Virus record (IMG/VR): IMGVR_UViG_3300009507_000159
Coordinates: 1 to 21,341 of that record
Length of the DNA: 21,341 nt
DNA from: a virus
Direction: 5' to 3' (one strand)
Shown: in pieces, positions 2,788 through 21,341 of the stretch
Position numbering within the stretch: position 1 is the stretch's first letter
Layout: every line of letters begins with the position of its first letter
Program-made: the position numbers and the translations under genes
Notes under the pieces: generated by a model
Told to the model about the DNA's origin: nothing
The model's database searches: none
What the model saw: only the letters and a program-made list of their open reading frames with translations

Positions 2788-3282
2788 ATGAAAACATCAT
2801 TTCAACAATACCGACGAATGGGTGCGCTTGGCTATGCCCGATGGTTATGCACCAATAACGGAGTAGAGTTTAGTGATGAAATGATTGCTCTCATGGATAG
2901 ACATTCCATTGAACAACATGTTAGTAAGCAACTTTCTCCCGTTGTAATACCCGCTGATGAGCCAGCACCTATGGTGGAGGAAGAGGTTGTCAATCCCTTC
3001 CCTGCTGACCTACAAGAATACGATTCACTGACCGTCGCTGAACTGCGTGCGCTATGCAAAGAGCGTGGCCTACCAGTGTACGGTACAAAGGCTGAAATTA
3101 TTTTGCGATTAAAGCAAAATGATACAGGCGAAATTCCCGAAGAAGACCCCAAAAGCCCTGCTGATGAAGCGGCCCTTGAAGGCGATTCGGAAGCCCCTAC
3201 CGAAGAGGTAGCCGCATCCAATGGAGAGGAAATAAATGAACAAGACAGTAGTGACAAACAAGAGCCTATTATTGAAGAATGA
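2788..3282 (+). CDS. SAP-motif protein of the tail module
   Basis: This 164-residue protein has three parts. Residues 1-50 look helical and basic-hydrophobic. A SAP-like motif lies at about 79-111 (DSLTVAELRALCKERGLPV, then GTKAEIILRLK), with the typical two helices joined by a G-containing turn. The C-terminal 50 residues are very acidic (many E and D). SAP motifs usually bind DNA in chromatin-associated proteins, but they also occur in virion and phage proteins, where the role is mostly unknown. Lying between the tube and the chaperones suggests an assembly or minor structural role. A GAGGGA ribosome site overlaps the upstream stop, 9 bases before the ATG. The last 47 bases are also read in another frame as the beginning of the next gene. 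The function is not established. Confidence 0.7.
   Translation: MKTSFQQYRRMGALGYARWLCTNNGVEFSDEMIALMDRHSIEQHVSKQLSPVVIPADEPAPMVEEEVVNPFPADLQEYDSLTVAELRALCKERGLPVYGTKAEIILRLKQNDTGEIPEEDPKSPADEAALEGDSEAPTEEVAASNGEEINEQDSSDKQEPIIEE
3223..3230 (+). promoter_or_regulatory. Ribosome binding site inside the SAP gene
   Basis: GGAGAGGA lies 5 bases before the ATG at 3236, within the coding sequence of the upstream SAP gene. It supports the 47-base out-of-frame overlap as real rather than a mis-called start. Confidence 0.75.
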
Positions 3283-3607
3283 CGATACGACCAAGCATGT
3301 GATAGGGATAAGTCCCGAAGATGAATCACAGGTCATTGAGGTATGGGTACGAGACATATCCTTCCTTGACATTCAAGCCGCCGCACAAAAAATGCTTCGT
3401 GTGGAAAAAGACGATGTAACTCTTGATTTGGCTGGCTACTGGGAACATGCTTTCTCACATTGGATTACCAAGACAAACCCCAGTTTAACTACTGATGAAT
3501 TACTTTCCCTCAAAGGCCATGTTGGAGAACAGGTCTGTAAGGTGCTACCACAACCACAAGAGTTGGCGGAGGCATTGCAAGGGGGGTTTACCAACCCGAC
3601 CGAGTGA
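3236..3607 (+). CDS. Tail assembly chaperone-like protein, short form (G-like)
   Basis: This 123-residue protein carries VWVRDISFLDIQAAAQKML (about residues 36-55), followed by helical segments and an amphipathic C-terminus. A hydrophobic-aromatic helix of this kind before the tape measure gene is typical of tail assembly chaperones, which coat the tape measure protein during tail assembly and leave the mature particle. The family call rests on position, size and this motif style. The start at 3236 has a good ribosome site (3223-3230) and overlaps the SAP gene by 47 bases. The frame ends at TGA 3605-3607, but codons GGG GGG at 3581-3586 next to a stem-loop suggest that some ribosomes slip back one base and continue to 3879, giving a long form of about 214 residues. 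Confidence 0.7.
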   Translation: MNKTVVTNKSLLLKNDDTTKHVIGISPEDESQVIEVWVRDISFLDIQAAAQKMLRVEKDDVTLDLAGYWEHAFSHWITKTNPSLTTDELLSLKGHVGEQVCKVLPQPQELAEALQGGFTNPTE

Positions 3608-3613
3608 GGGTTG
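3581..3613 (+). promoter_or_regulatory. Candidate -1 programmed frameshift signal (G6 run plus stem-loop)
   Basis: Six Gs at 3581-3586 are read as two Gly codons in the upstream frame. After a 5-base spacer, CAACCC (3592-3597) can pair perfectly with GGGTTG (3608-3613) around a 10-base loop that contains the zero-frame stop. The downstream frame is in the -1 relation and is open from 3496 onward, so slippage on the G run gives a fusion. On a one-base slip the P-site Gly tRNA re-pairs perfectly (GGG to GGG), but the A-site codon changes from TTT to GTT. It is therefore not a textbook X XXY YYZ heptamer. Confidence 0.6.
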
Positions 3614-3879
3614 AAGCATTCCTCAAGAAAGATAAGTATGATGCGATAGAAGATTTTAGCACACAAATAGAATTGTGGGCTTACATTATCGCAAAACACT
3701 TTGGAATTTCTTTGATGGAAGTGTATTCAATGCCCCCTCACTTGTTCAAGCAATCGCTTGTTTGGGCTATGGTATCAACCGAAGAGAATAATAAGGAAAT
3801 TGAGCGTAAGAAACAACAGGCGAAGAGCGGAGATAGAGAAGTAGTCGGACTGGATTATTCGTTTTTAGATTGGGAGTGA
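3604..3879 (+). CDS. Tail assembly chaperone-like extension (T-like), probably made by -1 frameshift
   Basis: The frame gives 91 residues if started at GTG 3604, but there is no suitable ribosome site; the only G-rich stretch is the slippery run, about 17 bases upstream. Expression as the C-terminal extension of the upstream protein is more likely: after a slip at 3583-3586 the extension adds about 97 residues. The protein is helical (FSTQIELWAYIIAKHFGIS, then MEVYSMPPHLFKQSLVWAM) with a charged stretch ENNKEIERKKQQAK and an acidic-aromatic end LDWE. In lambda-like viruses the T part of the GT fusion recruits the tape measure protein or tube subunits. The same role here is an inference from synteny. 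The tape measure gene starts 5 bases after the stop. Confidence 0.65.
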   Translation: MRVEAFLKKDKYDAIEDFSTQIELWAYIIAKHFGISLMEVYSMPPHLFKQSLVWAMVSTEENNKEIERKKQQAKSGDREVVGLDYSFLDWE

Positions 3880-3883: not shown

Positions 3884-5107
3884 ATGTCGTTATTAACCAC
3901 GATTGTACTGATGAGGAATTTGGTGAAGGATATCGGCCCCACATTCAAATCCATAGGAAAAATAGCGATAAACGCCTTCAAATCAGTTATCAAGTGGTTT
4001 AAAGATAATCTAATTACCCCAATGAAGGAAAAATTGGACGCTATCTCGTGGGATTCTATCAAGACAAAAGCCGAAGAAGCGTGGACGGCTATCAAAACCA
4101 AAACCGATGAGGTACTTGGTGCATTATGGGACTTGTTGCCCGCCATGCCCGATGAATTGACTTACGCTTACTGGTTTGGTGAAGGCGGGGTCTTTGATTG
4201 GAGCATTGACTGGGACGGTTTGTTTAAGTTTACTCTCCGCAAAGAACTGACTTATGACCATTGGTTCGGGGAAGGAGGTGTCTTTGATTGGAGTATAGAC
4301 TACGATGCTTTCTTTAAGTTTACTCTCCCCGATGAATTGACTTATGACCACTACTTCGGTGAAGATGGGGTATTTGATTGGAGTATAGATTACGATGCCT
4401 TGTTTAAGTTTACTCTCCCCAATGAACTGACTTATGACCACTACTTCGGTGAGAACGGGGTCTTTGATTGGGACATCAATTGGAGTGGCTTGTTTGACTT
4501 CACACTTCCCGATAAATTGACTTACGCTTACTGGTTTGGTGAAGGCGGGGTCTTTGATTGGGACTTGTCAAGCCTGTTTGATTTTAACGCATGGACTGAC
4601 TTGCTACCGGATTGGAGTTGGAGTGACATCATTCCCGACAACCTCAAAGACTTCTTTTCAATGGACACTCTTGAAACTACATTCACTGGTGTCACTGATG
4701 CTATAGGAAGTCTTGCTGGTACACTTATTGAGCCTGTGCGAACAGGCATCAATGATTTGTTGATTGATAATTTGAATAGCATAACCGGGTACGACCTACC
4801 AGCGATTGGTAGCATTCGTTCCATCACTGGATTTTCAAAAATACCTCACCTTGCAAAAGGTGGTATCGTAAACAAGCCCACACTCGCCATGATTGGTGAA
4901 GACGGGGCGGAGGCTGTCGTACCGCTTACTCAACGCAACAATCCAAGCGGTGCTGGTATGGGTGGTGGAACGGTCAATGTCACCGTGAACGCATCGGGTA
5001 TCACAGACCGCTCCGATAAGCGTGCCCTTGCCCGTGAGATTGGTAACATGATTCAGCAAGAGATGGCCCGTAACATCGGCGGCACCACCATGAGAGGTCG
5101 TTACTGA
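3884..5107 (+). CDS. Tape measure protein (short, with 30-residue repeats)
   Basis: This protein has 407 residues. Residues 1-90 are amphipathic helix with many K, I, F and W. Residues 91-237 hold five tandem copies of a 30-residue aromatic unit (ELTY..[YW]FGE.GVFDW.I...LF.FTL). A helical, partly hydrophobic stretch follows. The C-terminus has HLAKGGIVNKPTLAMIGEDG followed by AEAVVPL (about 322-347), a motif widely seen at the end of tape measure proteins, then a Gly-rich linker and a basic helical tail. Tape measure proteins set tail length and later help DNA delivery. By the general helix rule of about 1.5 angstrom per residue, 407 residues would fit a tail near 60 nm, which is short. A GGAG site sits 7 bases before the ATG. 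The gene overlaps the next one by a single base (TGATG). Confidence 0.85.
   Translation: MSLLTTIVLMRNLVKDIGPTFKSIGKIAINAFKSVIKWFKDNLITPMKEKLDAISWDSIKTKAEEAWTAIKTKTDEVLGALWDLLPAMPDELTYAYWFGEGGVFDWSIDWDGLFKFTLRKELTYDHWFGEGGVFDWSIDYDAFFKFTLPDELTYDHYFGEDGVFDWSIDYDALFKFTLPNELTYDHYFGENGVFDWDINWSGLFDFTLPDKLTYAYWFGEGGVFDWDLSSLFDFNAWTDLLPDWSWSDIIPDNLKDFFSMDTLETTFTGVTDAIGSLAGTLIEPVRTGINDLLIDNLNSITGYDLPAIGSIRSITGFSKIPHLAKGGIVNKPTLAMIGEDGAEAVVPLTQRNNPSGAGMGGGTVNVTVNASGITDRSDKRALAREIGNMIQQEMARNIGGTTMRGRY
4154..4594 (+). repeat. Five tandem 90-bp in-frame repeats in the tape measure gene
   Basis: Units begin at 4154, 4244, 4334, 4424 and 4514; the fifth diverges after about 80 bases. Each full unit encodes 30 residues with an invariant LTY, FGE, GVFDW and LF.F pattern. 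Bases 4155-4201 and 4515-4561 (units 1 and 5) are identical over 47 positions, whereas units 2-4 share TATGACCA at the variable site. This fits repeat expansion or contraction by in-frame recombination. Confidence 0.95.
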
Positions 5108-6264
5108 TGGGCACGCCAATTCGCCTTGTACGCAACGATGGCGGCATCATTGAGTTGATGGCTACCACGATGACCATGAATGTAGATAGAGGCGTTAATC
5201 CTCACGGTATGCCCTTTACTGGTGGTAGTCGGTGGGCCTTTGACCTCAACCTTCCTAAAGCACTCATCACCATTGAGGGAGTAATGACTGATGATGATAT
5301 ACTAAATATGTCATCTATAGGCCAAGATGCTAAGGGAGTTATTGATTTCTCAAGAACATTTGAGAATGCGCTTACTGAATCCTTCGCTCAATCAGCAGTA
5401 ATAGACAACATCGTGGCTGATGTGGTATTGAACACCCCATCTGTAAATGACCCATTCATTCAATTAAACCCGTATGGTAAAGTGTACTTAGCAAAACAAA
5501 ACTCCACCTTTCAAGGGAAAACAGGTGGTGGTTTACATTTTATCGCTGTACATGATGGAACATCACCTCGGACAGCGGTACAAATAGCCGCAAGTCTTAA
5601 CACGCTCATAGGTACCTACAGTAGTGATTTACAGGTAACATCGTCACTTATCACCTCTTCAATTAGTAATGAAGCAAACACAGCAGTGGAAATAACAAAC
5701 ATAAATCAAGCCTTTGATGGAAATGGTACCTTACAATTTCCTTATCCTACATACATAAAAAGACCGTATCACATACAATTTAGTGGTGGACGCAACACCA
5801 CACAAGTAACTAACAAAACAGCGGGGGATAAAGTGGCTGAACTATTTGCTATATTGAATAACTCCAATAATGGCGGCGGAGGAATGAATGTGGGTATGCT
5901 TGGAGCGGGTGTTGCAGGTTTTTTAACAGCGGCTTTTATTGATGGAAATTTTATGGACGATTTAGCAGAAACGAAAGCAATTACTTCAAAAAAATACGCA
6001 GATTACATTATTGCTATTCAAATACCATTTACTTCAAATGTGAATAGCAACGAATCATTGTTTTATATGCCTACAGGTGGTTTGAAAGATATAGATAGTA
6101 AAACAGTTGCAAATGCTAAACCAGCAGGGACGGAATTTAATATCCATGATAGGAAATATACGGGAATCAAAGGTGCGGTCGCTAACGCCACATTCGTTCA
6201 ACTTGGTGGTGAACCAATTTACAGTTACACCATCAACTTCGCACCGATTGACTGGATATTTTGA
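5107..6264 (+). CDS. Putative distal tail / baseplate protein (Dit-like)
   Basis: This protein has 385 residues and directly follows the tape measure gene, where long-tailed viruses encode the distal tail protein. The N-terminal 70 residues are a beta-rich segment (MGTPIRLVRNDGGIIELMA and onward, including RWAFDLNLPKALITIEGVM). The last residues return to strands (GGEPIYSYTINFAPIDWIF), as in tube-fold proteins whose ends pack together. The middle (about 110-300) is an insertion with a small Gly-rich hydrophobic segment (GGGGMNVGMLGAGVAGFLTA, about 258-277). That segment could be a buried helix, a fusion-like segment or, less likely, a membrane helix. GAGAGGT (5092-5098) lies 8 bases before the ATG, which overlaps the tape measure stop by one base. 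Its stop (TGA 6262-6264) is in the same frame as the giant gene. The name is from position and fold impression. Confidence 0.55.
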   Translation: MGTPIRLVRNDGGIIELMATTMTMNVDRGVNPHGMPFTGGSRWAFDLNLPKALITIEGVMTDDDILNMSSIGQDAKGVIDFSRTFENALTESFAQSAVIDNIVADVVLNTPSVNDPFIQLNPYGKVYLAKQNSTFQGKTGGGLHFIAVHDGTSPRTAVQIAASLNTLIGTYSSDLQVTSSLITSSISNEANTAVEITNINQAFDGNGTLQFPYPTYIKRPYHIQFSGGRNTTQVTNKTAGDKVAELFAILNNSNNGGGGMNVGMLGAGVAGFLTAAFIDGNFMDDLAETKAITSKKYADYIIAIQIPFTSNVNSNESLFYMPTGGLKDIDSKTVANAKPAGTEFNIHDRKYTGIKGAVANATFVQLGGEPIYSYTINFAPIDWIF

Positions 6265-6273: not shown

Positions 6274-9200
6274 ATGGTAGCAATCGGTCGCAGTAGTCAC
6301 GCCTTTTTCTTTGACGGCGTAAGCGATTCAGTCATTATCCCTCAAGGTGAATTTACCAGCACCGGAGTTGAAGATGGCGCAGGTAGTAAGGTCATGACCA
6401 AGACACTACAAGGTAGTGGTAGTCGTGCTTCAATTAACGGTAAAACAATTACAGACTTCGTGATAGAGGCTTGGGTCATACCCGACTGCGGTGGTGTAAT
6501 AGCGCACCGTGAAGGGCAGTTTACGCTTGAAATGGGTACAGTGGACACTCCCGGCCCTGCTGTATTCTCAGTATATGTTGAATCATTAGCGGGGCCATCT
6601 GTATTCCGTTTGGCTACTGCTTACGATGCAACCAACAGATGGGATGGAATCGTTTATCCTCAACAGAACCACGGCGGTATTCATGATTCGTACAACAGTT
6701 ATCACACGGGTAGTTATGATGACGCTACGAACATGAATTTTAACAACCGCCCGTTGTACCATATTGTTGCTGGAATTACTCAAAATCGGGTTTTCTTAGC
6801 AGTAAACGGTGAAATTGTATCACAACAAGACATCCCCAAAGAAACTCGTCTTGCTCGTTCAACAGAACATGTGTATCTTGGTGGACAGGGTGGAGAGTTC
6901 CGTGGTGCTATTGAAGCCATTCACTTTTCAAATGAATTTGATGAAGGAATGATTCAACCCTATATGACTGTCAAAAGTGATACTTCATCGGCTCTTTTCC
7001 GCTTTGAAGAGCCAATTGATATTATAGAGGGCACCTACGAGTTTTCAGCCTTCACAGCGGCGGCTAACGGTACTACCAAGACGCTTACTATGACAGCCGC
7101 CGATGCTCAAACTCTCGTTGCTCGTCTTACAGGTAAAGCATACGATTCATCTTCACCTACCACCACCTTCACTTCCACGCCGTATAGCATGGGTAACTAC
7201 AAGGTAGTGGATTACTACACTAACAGTGGTACAGCGGCTACAATTAGCGTACCACATACACCGTACAACCTACTCATCAATCCGGGTGCTATCAACCGTA
7301 ACACACAGAAGCCCAATCAATCCCCACCCGAACGGGTGCGGTTAGAAAGCATCAACGGTAGTAGTGGTGTCGTCACCTTCTCAAGCATACATGTTGATTT
7401 TATCAATGGGACAAGTGGACTTCGGGGTGCATTACATTCCCGTACAGCAGATGTTGACAACTACTTCGTTGTAATTGGTGCTGATTCATTGATTGATAAC
7501 GGTACAGGAAAACCATATCAACCACCGCATTACGGTACACAGATATTTGATAAGACTGGACAGATGGTTCTTGATGAAAGTAACTTCACGAATCACGGCT
7601 TGGTATATTCAAGCGGAATGGCTACAGATACATCAGCAAATGCCTACGCCGTCAATTGGCCCGCTACCCTTGATACGCTCTTTCAAGTCGGCCACAGCGG
7701 TCGCCACTTCTTCTCTCACATCACTGGTCATGAATACATGCGCCGATACCCTAAACCGAGCGACTTGTCAATAGACCAACAGGCTGATGGTTCGGCTGAC
7801 ATTGTACACATGGCGTATGAGAACAATGCTCGTGGGCTTGATGAGATGTTCGTGATGAACTCCCTTGTGGATTTCTATACTGAGTCTTTAGAAGCACCTA
7901 TCGCTCGTATTGAAAATTCTTCACCCGTTGCTACAGTTGTTGACAATGGGATGCCCGCCAGTAAAAAGGAACTCATTGCTATTGGTGGGGCCGGATTCAA
8001 GTACGCTCCATTCGCACTCAAAGGGCCAGTGCCCGAAACAGGTGACATAAATGAAATTACACGATTGTATCATCTTGTACCCGAAACTGAAAGTCGGGTT
8101 GCACTTCTTCATGTACCTGCTCTTGGTTCGTCGCATAATCTTGCGCCGTATGTTGAGATTCACTACAATGCAATAGACCTCACTGGTGCGAGTATGAGTC
8201 AAACTACTCCTATGCTGATGGTCACCAAGACCGTTCCAGCAGGTTCTCACATTCTAAGTGGAAGTACACGGGTATTGGATGTAATCAACTCCGACCTCGC
8301 AAACACCACTTTGTACTCTCCCGGTGGCGTAATTTATCTTACAAATGCAATTAGTGGATATGGTACACTCATGCAAGAATCTCACTCCCTTATTGGTGAT
8401 AATACAGGTGGGCAAGACAGTGATACAGAAATGGATTACAGTCTTACACCCGCTTTGTACACACCGCCTAATGATGTCACCGCCGAACCAGCCGCCCCAC
8501 CAAAAGCCATTTCACGCTCACAGTCAAGCGGTACACATGAATCAGTATATCACCGCCTTGCAATTGAAGCCATGTCGTCAAATACCAAAGACACACTATT
8601 GGATGAAGGAGCAGGGAAGAAAACACGCCAACCTACTACCGATAAGACAGGGCAGGGTGTATTTGACCTCGGCCCAACCACCCAATCTTCCCGTGTCTTT
8701 GAGATGTTTAACATCATTGACAATGTAATTATCACTAATGAAGCAGGTATTTTGGCTAAGATTTTCGTTCAACCAGCAGTTAAATCACGAGTAAATCAAT
8801 TATCATTGGTACGCTCTCTTGGTTCGGGCGATAATCCAAACATAGCCAGCATCATGTACCTCATGAGCCGCTGTCGTATTCGTGGTATTTCTAAGCAGGA
8901 AAACCCCGACAGTAACATGACAAATGTAGTTATTACCGCTACAGGTATCGCTGACAGTTTCGTAAACGAGAATGTGTCTGTTATAGGTAGCGGGTCACCC
9001 GACTCCCATGTGGTGAAGGAGATAGAGCCTAATGCACCAGTAGTCACCGTCACGCTTGGAGGGCCGGGACAGGGTGGTGTCAATACCAAGCCTACCTTTG
9101 ACCCAAGCCCGCTCATGCGCTTACCGGGTTCTACTCGTCGTAATTGTGTAGTACAGGCTCAAGTGGTGAAATCTAACTCTACACTAAGCATAAGCGTTAC

Positions 9201-12200
9201 ACCATTGAACAACGGTTCTCCCGATATGGCCTCATGGGGTACTATGTGTTTTCCAAAGGTTGGTCGTATATACCTCCAAGATGGGGCAAGTGCGGCTTAT
9301 ACAGATAAGACAGGAGCAGGATTTTATTTCAGCGAAACGGATGCGATAGCAAGTCGTACATTCTTAGATGCGGCGGGCACCGCATACGCTACACTTCATG
9401 AGTGGTGCAACGCTACAGAAGTATATCGTAACGGTAGTGCGGGGCAATATTCTACATCTGTTTTCATTTCTAATGATGGAGACTTTGACAACGACTCATT
9501 GGTACAAGATGGTAGCACGGTAAACGATAGAATGTTCCAATCACTTGACAGTGTAACGCACGATTATCAATTGGGCACACAGTATGCAAGTACACGCTCT
9601 ATGGTAGAAATACCCGTCTTCCCACAGCAGTTCTTTGACCATACGGATTTGGGTATTTTCCCCGGCCCCGACAACAGTATGAAGATGCACATTGATGCTA
9701 CATACACGGCTCATACATGGAACCCTACTCCTGTTGGCCGACGAGCAAACGACATAGGTGTAGCAGATAAAAGCGCAAACTCAGCCTATTCCTATACCAT
9801 AAACAACAAAGACTACATTGAATCTGCTACTATTCTTCGTATTGTACATAACACAAATGATGCTTACATCTATGTATCTCATCCAAAGATGTTTCCCGAT
9901 GCTACCAACACTGGTGCGGGGCAAGATGAGTTAGGCAATTTAAAAGGTGTTAATCGCCTACGCCGTGTCTTTCTTAACAATGGAGAATGGGCAGTGTATG
10001 ATAACAACCCCATATCGGATGGTTACATATCAATTCCAACGACACACACTGGTGGGTACCATGATGGTCATTCGGAAACCTTCTTTCAAAACGCTATAGT
10101 GGGTTCAAAATTACATACTGGTGGTGGATTCCGCAATGAAACTCTTATTCCTGTAGCATCGGATAAAGACAGACAATCATCCGATTTAGAAGGCCGCTCA
10201 CCGTATTATTATGACATGGCTAACATGATGACTCAAGGTGGTAATCTTGATTATGGTTTGCGACAGTATGTAAGTGCTGTAGAATTTAAGGCGGGGCCAT
10301 TGGCTAATCCTCACGCTCCAAGAACTGTTACTAAGAGAGCAAGAACTAAAATCATTGGAGTTTCGGAAAATTCTGGTTTTGGCTTCCCTAACAGCGCATC
10401 TCTTGGATATTTCTACGATTTGATTTTAGAAGACCCGTCATTATTCCCTCAAGAATATAACAGTGAAATGCTTTTTATTGGGGAAATCATGACTGATACC
10501 CCATTAGAAGTTCTTTTTGCTGGCTATGCAGACGGTATATCAGTTTCCGGTGCAAACAGTGTCACAATAAGAATACCACCTAACACTTCCTTTGATGAGG
10601 CCGATTTCATAGGTAAAGATTTCTTGTTAAAGAAAGCGGGTCACTCATTGAAAGGAGTTAGCGACCCTGCTAATATGGACACATTTGAAGAATCCCGAAC
10701 TTTGTTTAGACCAACTGGTAATGAAGAATGGGTGTTTGCTGTAGCATCATCACCTCAAGCCGCAGATTCTACTACTACACTTAACATTTCAAATTCTCAC
10801 AGTCGTTTGGCTAACTCTAATACTAATGGTTTAAATTTACGAAAAGGTGACACCCTGTTCAAGCAAACTGGTTTAGGTGATATAGAATATGTTGGCGAAG
10901 TGAGTGCTGTAGTGTCTAATCTTATTGGTGGGCACGCAACAAATTCTGTAGTTACTTTAACAGCAAATAATCTTGTAGCAATAGCAAATGGCGACCGTGT
11001 GATAATGGGTACAAGTACACTTTATCAAGAAGACCACGATGCTATTCTTAATCGCAGTTGGTTATTCCCATTTGCACAAGGTGGACTACGAAACGGAGAT
11101 ACCGTATGGATGAACATGACTCTTAACAACCCACATGCAATTGAAGGATTATTTGCAAAAAGCCGTGGTGTGTTCAATGAAGCAACTGTTTGGAAAGGTT
11201 TCAATGGTGGACAAGGAGTATTAACTCACCGCCCAAGAGATTCTATTCCTCTTGAGAATTTCCTAATTGGGAACTCCTGCCTTGAAACAGCACAAAACTT
11301 TGCTCAACATGTCAACAAAACCATAGAAATGAATTATGAGGCTATGGGACTCAACGCCACCCAAGCACCAACTGTCGCTTATGTTGACCCGTATCTTTCC
11401 ACTGATGGAAATGCTCGTGTACTCATGTTTGATGTAGCGCATGACCGTGAGTTTATTGCATTCCATGACTTACACATGCAGGTACAATCCAGTGCCGCAA
11501 CGCCTACTATTGGTTACACAAGAAATATAGCGTATGAAGGAGGTACAAATAATCTTGACAATATACTACGGGCCGTTAGTGGGGGTGCCCCAAATTACTT
11601 AACAACTCAAATTGATGTAGCCAATGGGTTTCCAACTGAAAACAAATTCATGCGTGCTACTCAACAATCCAAGTACATAGAAAGCGCATACGCACACAAT
11701 GTGCCTAATACAGTTACACAAGACCTTCTTGGTACATCGGCTGGCTCGGATGAAGATTATACTTTGTCAAATCCAACATCGGCGGGGGTTAATACTGCTC
11801 GTCGTGGTAAAGGCCACGGACATTTCGTACATACTGGTTTGTATCATGAGGAAATAACGAATACTCACACTGTTGGTGATAGTAATTTACCACGAGTTCA
11901 ACCCGCTGTCGCATCAATTTACTATGCTAATCAAGCACACAAATATGCAGATACAGTTAGCAAGAATTTGCTACTGACTACACTAAAATTACATCGGGCA
12001 AATGAGGGTTCAACCACGCATACCATGAAAGATAGCAGTACCCTGTTTGATACACCCGATGGTACTCGTGTCATTTCAGCATTCCTTTGTTTGAAGGGTA
12101 AAAGAAACACCACGCTTGACTTAGCCAACCATGAAGAAGACCGACTTGAGCATCTAAAACATTGGACTCAAATGGACTTTGTACGCCGTATGACTCTTGA

Positions 12201-15200
12201 TTTAGGTGAAGTTGGGGTCAAGGAAGGTGTAACAGATATTGAAGCGGCGGCAAGAGAAATTGTTCGTCTTAACAATCAAGGAGGTGCGCTTAATGGTGGT
12301 ACGCACGCTCGGCGTCCATCACAACAATACCCCGGAGAAAGTGAGCGTCTTGACCTTACACGCATAGGGGTAAGGCAAGATACCGCTGACCCTAACAAAG
12401 ACCCTACCTCAGCACACATCAATGCTGACTTTGCGGCTACTGGTTCAACTTACGACCCTGCACCGTTTTGGTATGGTGACATTGCCTTTGATACGCACGA
12501 CCGTGGTTCTCACATGGGGTATGTACGAGCGCATCTTGGCCGTGTTGTAGAAGACATTAACGGGAATGAAGGGTACTCAATAGTTATCCACTCAACTATT
12601 CCCGGTGCTTCGGGACGAAACTTCTGTCTATGGCTTGATAACAGTAAGGGACAATCAACCTATCAACCTCAATTCCTTATCGGACACGGTGGAAGATTCC
12701 GCAACTTTTGGGCGCAACCCGATGAAATGACAGGCGAAAACATGCACCCTGCACCTATGCCTCTCAACAAAGACGGGCGACCGTTTGCTCCTATCACAAC
12801 ACTTCGTGAATTTGTATCTCAAGAAGAACCCAATGAAGACTTCACAAGTAATCATGATATTGCTTCTCGTCGTAGTAAAACGGCCAACCCTAAAGGAAGA
12901 AATGTATCTGCACATATTGGCGGTATATCACATAACAGTGTAAACGATGAGTCATTTGAAACTCAAAGTCCATCTACTGCTCTTGTTAAGGGGCTAAGAA
13001 TGGGTAAACAGGCAGTAGGTCGCATCAACTTTGGTGGTCTTGTTGCATCGGGTGTACCGGGCTTTTCCCCAGTAGCAGGTAAGCACGGCCTCGGTCGTAA
13101 AGGAAGTACTGACTTTGATAAATTGTATAACGAAGGATTAGCCATAGGAGGCACATCACCTACCGCAATAACAAATTACAGCGGTCATGTAAAATCTACA
13201 GAGGTACTTGATGACGCTATAGGAGATAAAACACTGTATGGTTTCCGCTTTAACGACCACCGAGGACAGGGATACGGTGTACGATTCATATACCGTAAGA
13301 TGGGTGAATCGTTTGCTAATGATTTAACCACTATTCCTTCTACTCTTGATGATGAAATTTGTGTGTATTTCAATGATGGGGATGTTGCTAAGGGTGGATT
13401 TACTCTTGGACAACACATGATTGGATTTGGTGATGCTACAGGTCGGCTTGATGTTACGAGTTTGACTAAAAACAGTTGGCGAGGAAATCAGTGGCGAGGT
13501 GTATATGCTCCATCAGTAGGTACTAATTGTAGTATATCTTGGGACGCAATTGCAAGTACACTTACAGTTGAATTTGGTGCAGGTGAAGGTACTGAAAATG
13601 GCCCGTTTGATAGTGGACAGCAACTCGGCAATCACCCGGACTTACTTGGTTATCTTGGTTTCCCTCGGCAGAATGGAGTTATACAAATCACAGACCCATT
13701 TAATGACGCTTCATTATCACCTAAAGGTTCAGTTGGAAATGTTATTTCATACGAAAGTCGTACCCAATTAAACAGCGCGGGTACGCATATCTTCTATGGA
13801 GTGAAGGGAGATGAGTTTACTGCTTCTCATCATGTTAATACACCTACTGACAGCACACTACAATCTTCTGCTACAATGTTTAACTCGTCTGATGACCGTA
13901 TCATCAAAGCACTTATTTCACCACGAATTAACTGGACAACACTGGTGACAGACGAATTACTTGCGGCTGTAACTGCACGAGCCATCAATCTTCAAAACCC
14001 TAACACAGAAGACGGTATATCCTTTGATTGCCGACACATGTATGCGGCTGATGGTCGCACATTCGGAGAGTGGGGCGTAACGGCTGATTCAATTAAGATT
14101 CGTGCCCACAACCCTCAGCGTGGCGCACGCCCATTATCCACGATGTTTGAGGCATCTCTACATCGTGACTTAGGAATTGAATCACCTCACCTTGAATTTG
14201 GTGAGTACGAAACCCTTGTACCTAACTGGGCTGTAACTGCATCAGGAACGCACAATAAGCCTGTATCGGATGCTGACATAGAAGACAACCATCGTAAGGT
14301 TGACTGCGGCTATCTCCCATTCACCGTGTTACAAATACGCACAAAATCTCGTGGGTATCATACCAACACTCCTACACCTATCCTCGTGGATTCTTACAAC
14401 GACCCAGTACCTACTAAATCATGGGCAAATAACCTCAAGGGAATAACATATACATCAAGAAGCGGTGACCATATTCTACCTGCTCTTGATAATGCTATGG
14501 TTGTGACCGACCAACACCAACATTCCAGTGGTGTGAACACTTTCACATTACTTTCGGGTGAATTAAATACCCATCTTTTAGTTCCAGCAGGAGAAGAACC
14601 GGCCACCTTTAACAGTAAAGACAGGTTAGTTTCATTCGGTGATAAAAAGATTGTTTGTCATGGAAATAAAAAGAAGGCTCTTATGACAAGCGCACAAGGC
14701 GGTACTGCTGGTGACTCCACTACTAAATTAGTAGCAATTGATATTGAGGCCAATGACGAGTTCCTTGCTGAGTTCGGTGGTGGAAGTGTCAATCAAGACG
14801 GGTTGTTAATGCTTCACGCTGATAAGATATTTAGCGGTATGCGTCTTTACGGTAGCATTGAAAGCGAGCCGATTACTTACTTCAAGGGTGGTAGAGACAG
14901 TAACGACCACAGCGTTCCGCTGTACTTTGGTGGTGGGTTTAGCGGGGTGGTACTGGATGTCAACGATGGTACACAAAACGATTACTCATCATTCTACACC
15001 CACCCGTATTCTACTGGCCCAACAGGTACAGCGGGCATACAGAATGCGAATGAAATTAGTACGGCCTATGCTTTGATGGACTGTAACGCTCTACTTGCCT
15101 TCTTCCCCGGTACCCCATATCTCAATCAACATCGTGGTAGCATTCATCCACCCGCTTTCAATCAAGACAACATCCTATCTCCCGATACAGAAGGAGGCAC

Positions 15201-18200
15201 CTTAGCCAACTTAGCATCGGGTCAACCGTCCCATGTCACCGCAAGATATACGGCTGGAATTGTACGACAACGCCCTGTACCGCTTGTCATTCGTATGCCG
15301 CATCAAACAGCACGGTACACTGACCATAAAACAAATACTCCTTATTTTACTTCTTACCTCGTGTATGGGCCGGGACAGGCTTTCCCATTCAATGAAACCG
15401 CTACGGGTACGCTTGGAGAGACTGAGCCGCATCCGGGTTATGTCGTGACTACAGGGAACACTTGGAGTAAGGTACCTCATAGCAAGAACCTCCCCAATGA
15501 GATTACCAATAATGTTAATGATTACGGCCCACCCAATACAGACTATCAATCACGCCGAAATCGCTTCCATTGGAATACTACTTTGAATTGGTCACCGGCT
15601 CAAGGAATACCTAATATCGGTGATAACACTTCAACTTCGTATGGATTACGCCAACGCCCCGAACACGGTAGCCATTATGGTCAACATTTTACTAACCCTG
15701 TACCGGGTAAATTAGTTTCAAACAATCAAACTGATTACAAAAAAGCACATCCATATCAACACTGCGCTATAGCATACTACGGTATCGCTATGAGTGCTGA
15801 TATGACTTTCCACATGGACGGTGGGTACCATCCCGGCGGTTCTTGGATTGACAATCAATTAGCATTCAATCCACCTATGGAAAAGAGTGATTATGTCATT
15901 ACTAAACTCAATGGTAATGCAGTACAACCTACTGCTTATCGTGTATCCGGCCCGATGGCTAAGAGTGTACTTGATGGTCAATTAGGTGAAGATGCTGACG
16001 ACTTTGACCGAGAAATCATTGTTGTGGATGGTACACGCTGTCAAAACGGTGAAGAGTTGGCGACTATCATAGGTCAAGCCATCAACGAAAACCCCGGTAA
16101 AGGGGCACTCAAAGCAATGGGTGGTACATTTATGCCCAGTATGGGTAACGCTATGAGACAAGACCGTTATGGTTGGGTAGAACTTACATGGTTACAAGTA
16201 TATACCAACGATACCGCCAGTTCGTCTAAATCATTTTTTGAAGGTACAATTACGGGTGCTACACAAGATGAATTGGAACAAATACCAGCGTGTGGATGGA
16301 TTCGTACAGACGATGGTGGCCGACCTGTACACGGTAGTGACCCTACACCCGCTTTTGCACCATATCATTCTCGTGAAGTGTACAATAATGGCGGTACATG
16401 GACTGTACGATTTTGGCTCGCACCTAACAGAATCACTGGTAAGGCACAGTTTGAAGACATCACTACATGGCACAACAAGTGCGAAGGCGACCCTCTCACT
16501 GTACCGGGGATGAGTCCGATTCCTCCACCCCCACCCGGTCTTCCCGACACCGTTCCCGATAAATTCTATGTATGGAGTAAGTCGGGAGTAACATACTACA
16601 ACAACAATAGTGATACTACACGCAATCATATGACTCGCTCTCACTTTAGTGGGTTAGTTGATGCGATAGACAGAACACGGCCTGTAGGAGCCGTGGGATG
16701 GGCAGGAGAGCGTTATTCATACCTTAATTCGTTAAAGGTAGGTACAGAAGGGTATGGAGCAGGTCTTGGTGCTTGGTACAACAAACTCGGTTTTTCGCCT
16801 TATGGGGCGGCATCAAGCGTAATGAGTACATTTGGTCATATACCTAACTTAACTCCTATGCGAAATTCACCGGAGGCTTCCGGCATTCTAAACAATCGTA
16901 GTAATTCGGACAGCATCATAACAAGTCCTTATTCGTGGGATTATGATGAAACAGCGGCGGCTACATATGAAAACATTGACACTTCTACATACTTCGCAAA
17001 CCCATTAAACACAAATGAAGATAATCAAATCCCTCAATCTCTTGCTAATCAACAAGGTGTATTTGCTCGTGCATTCCTTGTTATATCGTATGAAGGAGAA
17101 ATGCCTTTGGTAGCAAAGCGTGACCGTGATGGTATCACCGCTACAGGTGACTGGCTCTCAGTGGCCTCAAAGACTGGTCAATCGGTTGCCGCCGCTACTG
17201 CAATCACATTTGCAGGTACCACTCAATGGGATGAGCGCATACACAGTGTGGACAGATTCGTTGCCCCTGCACATGGTGGGCCTAACATTGAAGCGTTGGT
17301 TGCTAACAAAACGCTTCCAACAGGCGATTTACCAAGTGAAGGTTTCCTTTTCAACGGACCTTTGCCCGACGACACATTACTTTTCAATGCAGAACCTTGC
17401 TTTGCAAAGACTGGTGATTTATTCTTTGATTTGGATGAAAGCCCCGGTAGTTTCTTCTTAGAAGATAACACTAATGTAGAGCGTAATCGCAATATGGACT
17501 TGAATCAAGGAACATTCTTTTCACAAGGTTCAGTCACCACAGTAAGTGGTGATGCAACAATAACACATGGTGCGAATGCTAACATCGTAGCAGGATTGGG
17601 GGTAATTGGTACAGGCATACCGTTAGGAGCCACAATTGCGAGCATAACAGATTCCACTCATTTTGAGTTGAGTGTTGCCGCTACCGCTAACGGTTCGGGC
17701 TTAAGTTTAAAATTTGGTGATGTCACATTATTACCTTACGATGACCCCACAAATTACTGGTTAAATGATACAAATGCTTTCAAGATGAATCAACGCTCAT
17801 CGGCCAAGAACTTCTCCGTTGAACACATCGTATGGAAGCGTATGGACGGTGGGAATCTTTCGCTACCTGCGGTCAACGCTCGTGGACTTGGTGCTGTTCC
17901 ATTCATTACACGAGTAGAAAGTGATACTCCTTACACTATGGGAGAAAAATTGTATGGTATTAACAGGTTCTCCTTTGAAACAACGAACAGTGCTATGTTC
18001 CCTATCATACAAGCACAGGAGTTATCTCACCCTCAAATCGCCGCTCGCCACCCCGATGAGTTGCGAAATGTACTGTCCATACCAAATGAAGAAATGCAGT
18101 TTGATGAAGTACAAGTAGAAGATGATACAGGGCAAGTCCATATTATTGAGGGCGGTTCACCATTCGGTACAATCATTCGTACATACAATGCGGTGTCCGA

Positions 18201-21200
18201 CCGTAGTGCTGAGGGATTAGCACCCGCAACTGCTGGTAGTGGTATAGAACCTAACATGAAGGTGAGGTTACCCGATGCTGATGCAATCCCCGGTAACCTC
18301 GTTATTCGTAGCGGATTTGACAGACTACAGGCGTATCAAAATGAGTCATTCGGTACTGGTGGTATGATGAGGCCGATTGACAGTGCTGACCTCAAACATT
18401 TGTTTACTGATGATACAAAAGGCCCACGCCTCGGTGGTACATTTAGCGACCATAATTGGGAGCATATCAGTCAAAGTTCATTCCCCGACCCGACATACGC
18501 AGGATGGGAAACTGCTACAGGTAACGCCCCACTTGAGACATCTTACGAATTGCATGACCGCACGCTGTTCTTCCACATCACCAAGAACGGCAACACTCAC
18601 AGTCACCGCCACCCTACAGTTTACACACACAGTGCAGGAGTAGTCAACAATGCTCTCACTGCTGTTTCTTACAGTGGTACAACACTCACAGTAAACACTG
18701 CTCCTAATACTTCACTTTACGGTGAATCTATTCGTGATGGACGCAAGTTCTTACGCCTATACAACCCAACAACCGATAAGGGCGGTGTTGCATCATTCAC
18801 AGGAATAAGCAGTTCTACTTTTACAGGTTGCGTAGGTGACGCTGACTTTGATGAGTTAGTTGCTGGTGATATATCGGCACTCAAGGTTGTACCATCTTAT
18901 TACATCCCTGCGGGTAGCACTCGCTTCTTTGCATCACGCAGATTGCGTGACCACGCCGAAGTAAGCGGTAACAGCCCCGATATGGCGCATACACAGTATT
19001 ATTCGTTCCTCACGCTCAATCAAACATTAGGTCACACCATATATGCAAAACCTAAGATGAGTCCATTAGCACTACCAAGAATGGGTCATCATTTCGTCAC
19101 ACCTACTATGGCTATGCTACCCGGTCACTTTGCTCATCCTGCGTATCAAGGGCTGTATAATAAACACCGAGCAATCCGTTCCGCTACGGTAAATGCTCAC
19201 GAAAATCTACTGATGGAAGAGCAACAAATGGTACTTGTAAAGAGTGATATTTCTACAACATTAACAAATCAATTACACGGTCATGATACACTACATACCT
19301 TTGGAAGTTTAACCGCTACACCCAGTGGCCCAAGTGACATTCACGGCGGAGCATTCACATTATTGTTTGAAACCAAACTTCGTAGTGACGGATATGGTGT
19401 ACTCGCATCCGAAGGACAGGCGGGAGTTGTTAATGCCGCTGGTGGTCATACCATTGTGCTTGAAGCCGCCGCTACCTACACCCTGCGTCATCACTTCCCC
19501 GACCCATCCGAAGTCGGTGCATATCAAATTATTATTCAACCTAACATACACAAGTCGCAACTAATAGGCTACCATGCTAACGGTGCGGCTACAGGCGACC
19601 CACTTGTGCATCAACTACCCGATGGCACTGAAAATGAATTGACCAGCCAGCAGGTTGCGCTTGTAGTAGGTTTGCGTGAACCCGACAGTGCTACGGGTGC
19701 TGTTGGTCTTGTGTTGGCTGAGGCTACAATGGCTGATGTTCGTGGATGTGAAGTGTTCATCAATGAACTCATCATAGACCACGACCCCGACCACGGAAGC
19801 CAATTCACCAACATTCCACCATTGATGTTGTACAATCCACTCGGTGTACAAGGTACTGAAAGTCCTGCCTTTGTTAAGCGGTCACTTCCATACCAGCCTC
19901 AAATGTTCGTTAGGTCATCACCCGGTATGACAACAAACATTCCGTGGTGGAGTATAATTCACAAAGTAGGGCCGGATGATAGCACGGCTACAGGTTTCCG
20001 CCATCTTGACCATTCTCGCTTTGACAACTACTACGAGTTCCTTCGTGCAAGCGCAGGTAGCATTGCTTGTCAAATCACTCTTGCAGGATACCCAAGTACC
20101 CATCCCGACATATATCACGAAGTGCTTGAAAACATCAGCCTCAATCCTGTGTGTACTGTAGTGAGTGTGGCTACAAATGTAGGTGGAAGTGGAAACACTG
20201 AAATTACAGTTGATGATGCTCGTGGCTTCCCACAAAAGCCATACTACGGCAACAAGTTGGAGTACACGGATGCAACGGGTGTGCGTCGTACTCACACCTA
20301 CACGGAGCGCAGTGGGTATGATGCGTCCAACATGAACAAACCAAAGATATTCACAGTAGTGGATAAAGCGACATTTACTGATGATTTAACCGCTAACACG
20401 AAATTACGCCTCACCCGTGCCTACGACTTCCGCCCCGCTGGTGCTATCTTCACTGAATCGCTATCAAGCATGGTACCTCGTATTCTCCCACAAATGTTGC
20501 AGGGTAGCCGAGATACAAACAGCCTACATACGGCTGATGCTTTCCTATGCTTATGGCATCCAAATCTTGGTCGTCCACATACTTTCTACTCGGATTCAAG
20601 TCGTACATGGCTTAACCCATTGACTGACCGTGCAGTTGCACAAAAGCCACTCAACAGTATGCCCGAACACTTTGAAACTGTACACTACCACGATGCAACA
20701 TACTACGCCAGCATGGGGCCGTTTGCATTCAAACGAAGTACACCTCAACCACCTTACAAGATTGCTAATACAAAAGGTGCCTCCGCATCTGCTACAGGTG
20801 GTAGTAATACAGCAATGATATTCAATACACGAGCGAGTGATACCACTTTCACAGTTGACGCATTGGTATCTATTGAAGGTACACCAAAAATCATGCTTGA
20901 CGGTAGAGCATACAGTGTAGCATCAATTAACGCTGGTACAAATACAATAACTGTTAATGAAGTCTTAGCCGCATCAATCACTGCTGACTCACCTGTGTTA
21001 ATTGGTGGTACGGGTGATATGATAACCGCTCAAACTATGACTGCGGCAATGGCTCCACAAGGATTATCCACTGCTGAATACACAAATCAAGGTGGTCAGT
21101 ATGACGGTAGTGATGCAAGTACAGCGGTTATGTTGAATCATTATTGGCCTTGTGGTAGTCGTGGTGGGCCACTGGTGAGCCGTCTTGACGGATATGGATA

Positions 21201-21341
21201 TGTCTCCGCCGCATGGGACTATCCACGAGACTATACTTTTGATGGGCCTGTGTGGACTGATGCAGATGATGATGGTTCATACACAGTGAGTAGTGGAATC
21301 AGTAAAACTTCTTACGACGGTATCAGCAATCCCACTCGCAC
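6274..21341 (+). CDS. Giant tail-tip / fibre-like virion protein, at least 5,022 residues (3' end outside window)
   Basis: One reading frame without a stop runs from ATG 6274 to the right edge; codons fall at every line start of the numbered sequence, and I read through it line by line. Residues about 9-220 resemble a LamG/concanavalin-like jelly roll. Later landmarks are GPGQGG and MRLPGSTRRN (about 930-950), a 'FND.RG.GYGVRFIYRK' segment (about 2324-2344), LLGYLGFP (about 2457-2464), a PPPPP linker (3417-3421), an Ig-like module (3760-3814) and beta modules near 4630-4710 and 4830-4915. Overall it is rich in Thr, Asn, Gly, His and Tyr, without long coiled coils, transmembrane runs or enzyme motifs that I can see. 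Lying directly after the distal-tail-like gene, it is probably a host-contact protein such as a central fibre, tail-tip or adhesin. A multi-domain structural scaffold or a cleaved polyprotein are alternatives. Confidence 0.9.
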   Translation, partial: MVAIGRSSHAFFFDGVSDSVIIPQGEFTSTGVEDGAGSKVMTKTLQGSGSRASINGKTITDFVIEAWVIPDCGGVIAHREGQFTLEMGTVDTPGPAVFSVYVESLAGPSVFRLATAYDATNRWDGIVYPQQNHGGIHDSYNSYHTGSYDDATNMNFNNRPLYHIVAGITQNRVFLAVNGEIVSQQDIPKETRLARSTEHVYLGGQGGEFRGAIEAIHFSNEFDEGMIQPYMTVKSDTSSALFRFEEPIDIIEGTYEFSAFTAAANGTTKTLTMTAADAQTLVARLTGKAYDSSSPTTTFTSTPYSMGNYKVVDYYTNSGTAATISVPHTPYNLLINPGAINRNTQKPNQSPPERVRLESINGSSGVVTFSSIHVDFINGTSGLRGALHSRTADVDNYFVVIGADSLIDNGTGKPYQPPHYGTQIFDKTGQMVLDESNFTNHGLVYSSGMATDTSANAYAVNWPATLDTLFQVGHSGRHFFSHITGHEYMRRYPKPSDLSIDQQADGSADIVHMAYENNARGLDEMFVMNSLVDFYTESLEAPIARIENSSPVATVVDNGMPASKKELIAIGGAGFKYAPFALKGPVPETGDINEITRLYHLVPETESRVALLHVPALGSSHNLAPYVEIHYNAIDLTGASMSQTTPMLMVTKTVPAGSHILSGSTRVLDVINSDLANTTLYSPGGVIYLTNAISGYGTLMQESHSLIGDNTGGQDSDTEMDYSLTPALYTPPNDVTAEPAAPPKAISRSQSSGTHESVYHRLAIEAMSSNTKDTLLDEGAGKKTRQPTTDKTGQGVFDLGPTTQSSRVFEMFNIIDNVIITNEAGILAKIFVQPAVKSRVNQLSLVRSLGSGDNPNIASIMYLMSRCRIRGISKQENPDSNMTNVVITATGIADSFVNENVSVIGSGSPDSHVVKEIEPNAPVVTVTLGGPGQGGVNTKPTFDPSPLMRLPGSTRRNCVVQAQVVKSNSTLSISVTPLNNGSPDMASWGTMCFPKVGRIYLQDGASAAYTDKTGAGFYFSETDAIASRTFLDAAGTAYATLHEWCNATEVYRNGSAGQYSTSVFISNDGDFDNDSLVQDGSTVNDRMFQSLDSVTHDYQLGTQYASTRSMVEIPVFPQQFFDHTDLGIFPGPDNSMKMHIDATYTAHTWNPTPVGRRANDIGVADKSANSAYSYTINNKDYIESATILRIVHNTNDAYIYVSHPKMFPDATNTGAGQDELGNLKGVNRLRRVFLNNGEWAVYDNNPISDGYISIPTTHTGGYHDGHSETFFQNAIVGSKLHTGGGFRNETLIPVASDKDRQSSDLEGRSPYYYDMANMMTQGGNLDYGLRQYVSAVEFKAGPLANPHAPRTVTKRARTKIIGVSENSGFGFPNSASLGYFYDLILEDPSLFPQEYNSEMLFIGEIMTDTPLEVLFAGYADGISVSGANSVTIRIPPNTSFDEADFIGKDFLLKKAGHSLKGVSDPANMDTFEESRTLFRPTGNEEWVFAVASSPQAADSTTTLNISNSHSRLANSNTNGLNLRKGDTLFKQTGLGDIEYVGEVSAVVSNLIGGHATNSVVTLTANNLVAIANGDRVIMGTSTLYQEDHDAILNRSWLFPFAQGGLRNGDTVWMNMTLNNPHAIEGLFAKSRGVFNEATVWKGFNGGQGVLTHRPRDSIPLENFLIGNSCLETAQNFAQHVNKTIEMNYEAMGLNATQAPTVAYVDPYLSTDGNARVLMFDVAHDREFIAFHDLHMQVQSSAATPTIGYTRNIAYEGGTNNLDNILRAVSGGAPNYLTTQIDVANGFPTENKFMRATQQSKYIESAYAHNVPNTVTQDLLGTSAGSDEDYTLSNPTSAGVNTARRGKGHGHFVHTGLYHEEITNTHTVGDSNLPRVQPAVASIYYANQAHKYADTVSKNLLLTTLKLHRANEGSTTHTMKDSSTLFDTPDGTRVISAFLCLKGKRNTTLDLANHEEDRLEHLKHWTQMDFVRRMTLDLGEVGVKEGVTDIEAAAREIVRLNNQGGALNGGTHARRPSQQYPGESERLDLTRIGVRQDTADPNKDPTSAHINADFAATGSTYDPAPFWYGDIAFDTHDRGSHMGYVRAHLGRVVEDINGNEGYSIVIHSTIPGASGRNFCLWLDNSKGQSTYQPQFLIGHGGRFRNFWAQPDEMTGENMHPAPMPLNKDGRPFAPITTLREFVSQEEPNEDFTSNHDIASRRSKTANPKGRNVSAHIGGISHNSVNDESFETQSPSTALVKGLRMGKQAVGRINFGGLVASGVPGFSPVAGKHGLGRKGSTDFDKLYNEGLAIGGTSPTAITNYSGHVKSTEVLDDAIGDKTLYGFRFNDHRGQGYGVRFIYRKMGESFANDLTTIPSTLDDEICVYFNDGDVAKGGFTLGQHMIGFGDATGRLDVTSLTKNSWRGNQWRGVYAPSVGTNCSISWDAIASTLTVEFGAGEGTENGPFDSGQQLGNHPDLLGYLGFPRQNGVIQITDPFNDASLSPKGSVGNVISYESRTQLNSAGTHIFYGVKGDEFTASHHVNTPTDSTLQSSATMFNSSDDRIIKALISPRINWTTLVTDELLAAVTARAINLQNPNTEDGISFDCRHMYAADGRTFGEWGVTADSIKIRAHNPQRGARPLSTMFEASLHRDLGIESPHLEFGEYETLVPNWAVTASGTHNKPVSDADIEDNHRKVDCGYLPFTVLQIRTKSRGYHTNTPTPILVDSYNDPVPTKSWANNLKGITYTSRSGDHILPALDNAMVVTDQHQHSSGVNTFTLLSGELNTHLLVPAGEEPATFNSKDRLVSFGDKKIVCHGNKKKALMTSAQGGTAGDSTTKLVAIDIEANDEFLAEFGGGSVNQDGLLMLHADKIFSGMRLYGSIESEPITYFKGGRDSNDHSVPLYFGGGFSGVVLDVNDGTQNDYSSFYTHPYSTGPTGTAGIQNANEISTAYALMDCNALLAFFPGTPYLNQHRGSIHPPAFNQDNILSPDTEGGTLANLASGQPSHVTARYTAGIVRQRPVPLVIRMPHQTARYTDHKTNTPYFTSYLVYGPGQAFPFNETATGTLGETEPHPGYVVTTGNTWSKVPHSKNLPNEITNNVNDYGPPNTDYQSRRNRFHWNTTLNWSPAQGIPNIGDNTSTSYGLRQRPEHGSHYGQHFTNPVPGKLVSNNQTDYKKAHPYQHCAIAYYGIAMSADMTFHMDGGYHPGGSWIDNQLAFNPPMEKSDYVITKLNGNAVQPTAYRVSGPMAKSVLDGQLGEDADDFDREIIVVDGTRCQNGEELATIIGQAINENPGKGALKAMGGTFMPSMGNAMRQDRYGWVELTWLQVYTNDTASSSKSFFEGTITGATQDELEQIPACGWIRTDDGGRPVHGSDPTPAFAPYHSREVYNNGGTWTVRFWLAPNRITGKAQFEDITTWHNKCEGDPLTVPGMSPIPPPPPGLPDTVPDKFYVWSKSGVTYYNNNSDTTRNHMTRSHFSGLVDAIDRTRPVGAVGWAGERYSYLNSLKVGTEGYGAGLGAWYNKLGFSPYGAASSVMSTFGHIPNLTPMRNSPEASGILNNRSNSDSIITSPYSWDYDETAAATYENIDTSTYFANPLNTNEDNQIPQSLANQQGVFARAFLVISYEGEMPLVAKRDRDGITATGDWLSVASKTGQSVAAATAITFAGTTQWDERIHSVDRFVAPAHGGPNIEALVANKTLPTGDLPSEGFLFNGPLPDDTLLFNAEPCFAKTGDLFFDLDESPGSFFLEDNTNVERNRNMDLNQGTFFSQGSVTTVSGDATITHGANANIVAGLGVIGTGIPLGATIASITDSTHFELSVAATANGSGLSLKFGDVTLLPYDDPTNYWLNDTNAFKMNQRSSAKNFSVEHIVWKRMDGGNLSLPAVNARGLGAVPFITRVESDTPYTMGEKLYGINRFSFETTNSAMFPIIQAQELSHPQIAARHPDELRNVLSIPNEEMQFDEVQVEDDTGQVHIIEGGSPFGTIIRTYNAVSDRSAEGLAPATAGSGIEPNMKVRLPDADAIPGNLVIRSGFDRLQAYQNESFGTGGMMRPIDSADLKHLFTDDTKGPRLGGTFSDHNWEHISQSSFPDPTYAGWETATGNAPLETSYELHDRTLFFHITKNGNTHSHRHPTVYTHSAGVVNNALTAVSYSGTTLTVNTAPNTSLYGESIRDGRKFLRLYNPTTDKGGVASFTGISSSTFTGCVGDADFDELVAGDISALKVVPSYYIPAGSTRFFASRRLRDHAEVSGNSPDMAHTQYYSFLTLNQTLGHTIYAKPKMSPLALPRMGHHFVTPTMAMLPGHFAHPAYQGLYNKHRAIRSATVNAHENLLMEEQQMVLVKSDISTTLTNQLHGHDTLHTFGSLTATPSGPSDIHGGAFTLLFETKLRSDGYGVLASEGQAGVVNAAGGHTIVLEAAATYTLRHHFPDPSEVGAYQIIIQPNIHKSQLIGYHANGAATGDPLVHQLPDGTENELTSQQVALVVGLREPDSATGAVGLVLAEATMADVRGCEVFINELIIDHDPDHGSQFTNIPPLMLYNPLGVQGTESPAFVKRSLPYQPQMFVRSSPGMTTNIPWWSIIHKVGPDDSTATGFRHLDHSRFDNYYEFLRASAGSIACQITLAGYPSTHPDIYHEVLENISLNPVCTVVSVATNVGGSGNTEITVDDARGFPQKPYYGNKLEYTDATGVRRTHTYTERSGYDASNMNKPKIFTVVDKATFTDDLTANTKLRLTRAYDFRPAGAIFTESLSSMVPRILPQMLQGSRDTNSLHTADAFLCLWHPNLGRPHTFYSDSSRTWLNPLTDRAVAQKPLNSMPEHFETVHYHDATYYASMGPFAFKRSTPQPPYKIANTKGASASATGGSNTAMIFNTRASDTTFTVDALVSIEGTPKIMLDGRAYSVASINAGTNTITVNEVLAASITADSPVLIGGTGDMITAQTMTAAMAPQGLSTAEYTNQGGQYDGSDASTAVMLNHYWPCGSRGGPLVSRLDGYGYVSAAWDYPRDYTFDGPVWTDADDDGSYTVSSGISKTSYDGISNPTR
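6298..6936 (+). other. LamG / concanavalin A-like domain at the N-terminus of the giant protein
   Basis: Residues 9-220 follow the LamG pattern: an opening HAFFFDGVSDSVIIP strand, FVIEAWVIPDCGGVIAHREG (strand with W, then turn), FSVYVES, YHIVAGITQNRVFLAVNG and VYLGG, closing with FRGAIEAIHFS. This is the order seen in lectin-like jelly rolls that bind glycans or proteins. Specific ligand residues cannot be assigned from sequence alone. Confidence 0.7.
16522..16536 (+). other. Polyproline linker in the giant protein
   Basis: Five consecutive Pro codons (residues 3417-3421) sit within a Pro-rich stretch, SPIPPPPPGLPDTVPD. They separate a beta-rich upstream region from a Tyr/Asn/Gly-rich downstream region. 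This is a likely domain boundary or stiff hinge. Confidence 0.7.
17551..17715 (+). other. Ig-like surface module in the giant protein (copy B)
   Basis: Residues 3760-3814 carry DATITH, IPLGATIASIT, T.FELSVAATANGSG and LSLKF, the same order of landmarks as residues 69-130 of the tail-tube-like protein (copy A, 874-1059). The nucleotide sequences are clearly diverged, so the copies are related in protein fold rather than by recent duplication. Confidence 0.6.
20761..21012 (+). other. Beta module with repeated 'loop-strand' pattern in the giant protein
   Basis: Residues about 4830-4913 show Ala/Ser/Thr-rich strands, then TFTVDALVSIEGTPK, AYSVASINAGTNTITVNEV and SPVLIGG. This spacing of a 'position V.I' strand, a 'SI....NTITV' hairpin and a closing V.I strand recurs at about 20158-20430 in the same protein and at 1579-1875 in the tail-tube-like protein. 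It is probably a small structural or adhesive beta domain. Confidence 0.45.

Follow-up and report, generated by a model that had tools for sequence, protein, structure and literature searches.

A giant non-repetitive protein of about 640 kDa as probable tail-tip scaffold of magroviruses

The DNA stretch analysed here (hereafter the window) is an entire viral record of 21,341 b and contains a very long open reading frame, the product of which is called the giant in this work. We propose that this non-repetitive multidomain virion protein of ~640 kDa probably forms much of the magrovirus tail tip, where it should act as a scaffold-adhesin which binds glycans and bears both the hub and the fibres. 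Such a glycan-engaging tail-tip scaffold is favoured because the gene has Dit-like and hub-like flanks, because its product has lectin-type domains and is conserved, and because a separate variable fibre is encoded. In the preliminary description, the frame was presented as a giant protein of the virion module, possibly an elongated fibre; our results are in agreement with a single chain, most likely located in the tail tip, but not with a simple elongated repetitive fibre.

6274..21339, + strand: giant ORF, 5,022 codons, open at the window edge; full protein estimated at ~5,917 aa

The giant ORF starts with an ATG, which is preceded by a Shine-Dalgarno-like GAGGTGA and, just before, by the stop of the upstream gene. 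No stop codon is present up to the window edge, and the chance probability of 5,022 open codons at the window composition is ~10^-125. Since the window is the whole record and the frame is open at its edge, the stop had to be looked for in relatives. In L046 and L047, which are 92-95% identical to the window, it is found 895 residues past the window edge, so that the full giant is estimated at ~5,917 aa (~640 kDa); the extension of the frame to its stop, as had been suggested, was thus carried out via relatives. The calculated mass is 544 kDa for the 5,022 residues in the window and 617-688 kDa in complete relatives. Along the full length, dN/dS against three relatives is mostly 0.04-0.18 (500-codon windows where computable), indicating strong purifying selection throughout the giant. 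The unusual length alone speaks for an artefact of assembly or indel errors, the possibility which had been named as able to refute the frame. As the many independent complete orthologs (~25 distinct ones) are collinear, share start and end and are under purifying selection, this explanation is ruled out; we count it as already refuted, with a negligible residual probability, and the continuous frame of at least 5,022 codons is real.

The complete orthologs, in ~25 distinct contigs, have about 5,300-6,360 aa, some of these lengths being stop-to-stop, and have the same start and end. Merged relatives, for which both contig ends were fetched, show one uninterrupted frame of 5,520-6,363 codons followed by a stop, with the exceptions of one contig that ends before the stop and of one without start. 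The N-termini (MVAIGRSSHAFFFDGV-like) and the C-termini (...DHSGDGA-like) are conserved, a few contigs having a differing C-terminal end. In IMG/VR, 44 loci were matched by the first 500 residues of the giant and 104 stretches by its last 521 residues in the window, and at least 354 stretches encode relatives according to a profile of residues 1590-2200. The most divergent long ortholog pair still has 42% identity over 4,178 positions and the locus G+C ranges from 0.37 to 0.57 among orthologs, suggesting that the gene is old and maintained. Between G001 and G003, identity is 65% for the giant, 36% for the Dit-like protein and 53% for the fibre. A tblastn search of both halves of the giant against 50,697 phage records gave no match. 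A relative is already present in databases, since the unnamed viral protein A0A1B1IU10 of UniProt (BFVD piece 1; 47% identity over 1,212 columns, TM 0.71) is a clear homolog. Small giant-encoding contigs (L159, L160 and L161) were also observed in GTDB genomes labelled Maricaulis and Cytophagaceae; in these bacterial MAGs they look like misbinned virus contigs.

The anatomy of the giant was analysed by profile searches and by structure prediction, and the following segments were delineated.

6274..7050, + strand: N-terminal LamG/concanavalin-A-like jelly-roll domain, ~residues 1-260, end approximate
8965..9144, + strand: residues 898-957, ~92% conserved in the first 21 orthologs, without predicted structure alone
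10336..10638, + strand: beta domain (residues 1355-1455) with weak similarity to residues 4624-4716
11041..12873, + strand: core of high conservation, residues 1590-2200, in which many His, Trp, Gly and Pro are invariant
17551..17715, + strand: residues 3760-3814, mobile small beta domain, missing at this site in most orthologs
20143..20421, + strand: residues 4624-4716, where the weak internal repeat occurs a second time

A recognised fold was obtained in the N-terminal domain only. The Pfam family Laminin_G_3 was detected there in 23 of 32 members (best E 5e-10), the copy of the window itself being below threshold; the jelly roll of the AF2 model has a pLDDT of mostly 80-92, and VIA-align gave Z values of 12-17 to LamG, pentraxin and carbohydrate-binding proteins. 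This lectin-type LamG domain is predicted to bind glycans, and a second LamG is present near the C-terminus in some longer variants. Residues 1-1180, the only usefully modelled part, have fold matches dominated by LamG and were also tested against the gp27-like hub fold; after re-alignment of this model, LamG, a carbohydrate-binding protein and pentraxins rank highest. The first rows given by Foldseek for the same residues, clostridial neurotoxin receptor-binding domains, were rejected (TM not above 0.26, rmsd close to 19), and no toxin reading is made because only the jelly-roll lectin fold is common to these matches. For residues 1150-2330, the pLDDT of the model (54) is so low that its PDB matches are meaningless. 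Segment-wise searches with overlapping pieces against Pfam and PHROGs gave nothing besides LamG and a marginal phrog_584 'major tail' match (E 0.016), which falls in a variable island; PDB sequence profile searches with five tiles gave nothing meaningful. At the sequence level, most of the giant appears to resemble nothing known.

Highly conserved blocks are distributed over the entire chain and alternate with variable islands. Residues 898-957 are conserved yet unstructured in the model, pointing to a segment that becomes ordered upon assembly only; it could be an interface strand or clamp. The pair formed by residues 1355-1455 and 4624-4716 is the sole internal repeat above background in the protein of the window. 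A small beta domain of ~65-75 aa is common to the tail tube protein and the giant; ~89 occurrences at roughly 25 sites were counted in 43 orthologs, few per protein and scattered, and insertions of this domain explain a part of the ortholog length variation. Judging from these occurrences, it is a mobile domain within one virus group. A repetitive fibre or adhesin was thus rejected, as only one weak repeat pair exists and the mobile domain copies are few and scattered; the separate, variable tail-fibre gene downstream likewise speaks against a simple elongated fibre as had been envisaged.

Upstream of the giant, the window encodes the other components of a tail module.

206..658, + strand: 150-aa conserved protein, head-tail joining or tail completion-like (phrog_19972, E 9e-6; phrog_2595 connector, E 0.1)
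670..2778, + strand: major tail tube protein, 702 aa; an ortholog matches Phage_tube_2; HCTV-5 tail tube, E 3e-3
874..1059, + strand: residues 69-130 of the tail tube protein, where the mobile small beta domain recurs
3236..3879 (3236-3607 + 3604-3879), + strand: tail assembly chaperone pair with GGGGGGT slippery site; HCTV-5 gp128/129 joined gene
3884..5107, + strand: tape measure protein, 407 aa (phrog_1535, E 3.5e-17), with 90-base tandem repeats
5107..6264, + strand: 385-aa Dit-like protein, by its distal-tail position only

The tail tube gene is followed by those for the tail chaperone, the tape measure, the Dit-like protein and the giant, and then by those for a 111-aa protein, the 472-aa hub-like protein, a 114-aa protein and the variable tail fibre; as the window ends inside the giant, the part after it is taken from relatives. 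The Phage_tube_2 match of the tail tube ortholog (E 1e-5) is just under the curated cut-off, and a SAP-like protein is also encoded in the window, where it is listed between the tail tube and the chaperone pair. The GGGGGGT heptamer (window 3541-3607) lies near the end of the first chaperone frame and is identical in the ten closest homologs listed, and a loosely defined slippery motif is present in 98 of the 102 homolog loci; the tail chaperone is probably made by -1 programmed frameshift, as annotated in HCTV-5. The 407-residue tape measure protein of the preliminary description was confirmed by its phrog_1535 match. Its shortness, which had been pointed out, is normal in archaeal relatives (480 aa in HCTV-5 and ~341 aa in HFTV1; PMC12494034). 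Among relatives, tape measure lengths are mostly ~250-430 aa; the 90-base tandem repeats within this gene are located at 4148-4561 and are consistent with a change of tail length by repeat number.

The 385-aa protein encoded just before the giant gave no family match, and the giant sits directly after this gene as Tal/gp27-type hubs do, the upstream gene being Dit-like by position only. On the other side, the 472-aa protein matches phrog_21793 in the stretch which also has a weak alignment with HCTV-5 gp132, and we call it hub-like from its position and this weak gp132 link only. The C-terminus of the giant is encoded upstream of the hub-like gene in 57 of 58 contigs, the remaining contig having just 820 nt upstream. 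The separate tail fibre gene is variable (371-1,199 aa), and its long form matches tail-fibre families at 7e-15. Further observations were made in the relatives. L311 and L315 have ~2.4-2.9 kb extra between the end of the giant and the hub-like gene, apparently due to inserted gene(s). In L142, a virus-encoded thermosome (5185-6687) adjoins the tail module on the opposite strand. The second-largest ORF, of 1,978 aa, lies beside the prohead protease and capsid genes (L144 4065-10001, that is G003 44065-50001), has 40% identity between G001 and G003 and gave no family match.

A chaperonin gene was detected in 13 of 14 giant-carrying contigs and a family B DNA polymerase in 12 of 14. Among the NCBIfam models, the G003 chaperonin fits those of archaeal thermosome subunits best (E 3e-127), and far better than GroEL (2.5e-31). 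The polymerase is a 796-aa protein (E 5e-41), and haloarchaeal tailed viruses are its best-ranked phage-record matches among those listed. The G003 genome (107,632 b) is terminally redundant, with a repeat of 75 b, and 17.7% of it is taken by the giant gene (19.1 kb); the structural genes are on one strand, the polymerase and the thermosome on the other, and the major capsid protein, portal, terminase and prohead protease are also encoded on the strand opposite to the thermosome. Magroviruses have genomes of ~90-110 kb, in which the morphogenesis and replication clusters run in opposite directions (PMC12999244, PMC10768690). By gene content and organisation, the giant-carrying contigs match this published description (Magrovirales; PMC12999244, PMC10768690); the window holds a tail-module fragment only and is assigned to the magroviruses through its identity to these contigs. 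The hosts, taken from the literature, are very probably Poseidoniales archaea.

Other functions of the giant have to be weighed against these data. It could be a peripheral, elongated receptor-binding or glycan-degrading adhesin instead of a scaffold, in which a possible hydrolase domain of the conserved core would open the glycan layer. LamG domains at both ends of some long variants and the near-invariance of 43 of the 167 His residues are compatible with this reading, and HFTV1 has a deacetylase-like virion protein that acts on the glycans of its host (PMC12494034). However, searches of Pfam, PHROGs and PDB matched the giant to no enzyme family, and a zinc-protease motif was looked for in it and not found, no conserved HExxH or GxSxG motif being present; strong conservation and a constant core length are unlike host-range adhesins, and a separate variable fibre is encoded. 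We consider such an adhesin unlikely. An ejected internal protein carried in the tail, for instance a virion RNA polymerase or a pilot protein, is far less probable still, even if the tape measure-RNA polymerase fusion of P23-45, of 5,002 residues, works in this way (PMC10770324). In the present case, the tape measure has its own gene upstream, the conserved DxDGD motif is absent, the single conserved DxDxD reading DHDPD, and the model is beta-rich with a lectin-type N-terminus; for the first two of these reasons, the giant was rejected as a tape measure or virion RNA polymerase.

A polyprotein, cut during or after assembly into smaller tail-tip proteins and so replacing the separate small genes of haloviruses, would account for the several small genes (gp131-137) which HCTV-5 has where magroviruses have the giant, and for the alternation of conserved blocks and variable islands; a prohead protease is also encoded by the virus. 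This protease serves the capsid and alone proves nothing, and profile comparison linked no part of the giant to HCTV-5 gp131-137. We hold this cleavage to be quite unlikely. It is possible, but should be taken as tentative, that the tail tip is built from one uncleaved chain of 550-690 kDa with mostly unseen folds, in place of the set of small proteins that form the baseplate in other archaeal tailed viruses; a one-gene baseplate would then be conserved across a major group of ocean viruses.

In the tail-tip scaffold model that we prefer, ~3-6 copies of the giant, assembled below the final ring of the tube, would surround the hub as a scaffold or cage, and would hold the hub and the separate variable tail fibres. 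The jelly-roll domains would bind archaeal surface glycans, and this contact would lead to hub opening and then to genome release. Host-range variation would reside mainly in the fibre, the giant being the constant engagement machine. Such 3-6 copies would amount to ~2-4 MDa, a mass comparable to much of the tail, the tube being estimated at 6 MDa for ~13 rings of the 702-aa tail protein, as scaled from the 11 rings of HFTV1.

Because a conserved gene takes up to ~18% of the genome, the giant must be central to infection. It is a strong marker at the sequence level, has a surface predicted to engage glycans and can be targeted when the particles of this widespread group of tailed viruses, which very probably infect ocean archaea, are sought by proteomics or cryo-EM. 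It also raises the question of how a chain of ~6,000 residues can be folded and assembled within an archaeal cell; the virus's own thermosome, encoded beside the tail module, might help to fold it.

No comparable archaeal-virus giant, conserved, non-repetitive and distinct from a tape measure, was found in the literature covered, Philosof 2017, Zhou 2023 and Prabhu 2025 being outside its scope; the genome-organisation section of the magrovirus survey mentions 'minor tail proteins' only and no giant gene. Size alone is not new, since gp96 of the Thermus phage P23-45 is a tape measure-RNA polymerase fusion of 5,002 residues (PMC10770324). Like the giant, gp96 is a single giant tail-associated virion protein (~550 kDa), but it fuses tape measure and polymerase; the giant lacks the polymerase motif, and the tape measure next to it has its own gene. 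The halovirus HCTV-5 (Druskaviridae, NC_021327) resembles the present module by its tail tube, frameshifted joined chaperone, short tape measure and tip genes, including gp132 with its weak similarity to the 472-aa hub-like protein. It differs in having no giant gene: its largest tail-tip protein has 498 aa, and a baseplate protein and a LamG protein are encoded as small proteins in the place corresponding to the giant. The tail-tip proteins of HFTV1, gp44 included, have no profile similarity to the giant, and gp44 has none to the 472-aa protein either. With 954 aa against ~5,900 aa, gp44 is also much smaller. HFTV1 nevertheless shares with the present system an archaeal tail tip with a carbohydrate-binding domain, separate fibres and a short tape measure (PMC12494034), and its hub gp44, which carries this domain and is shed on DNA ejection, may be regarded as a precedent for the role proposed for the giant (PMC12494034).
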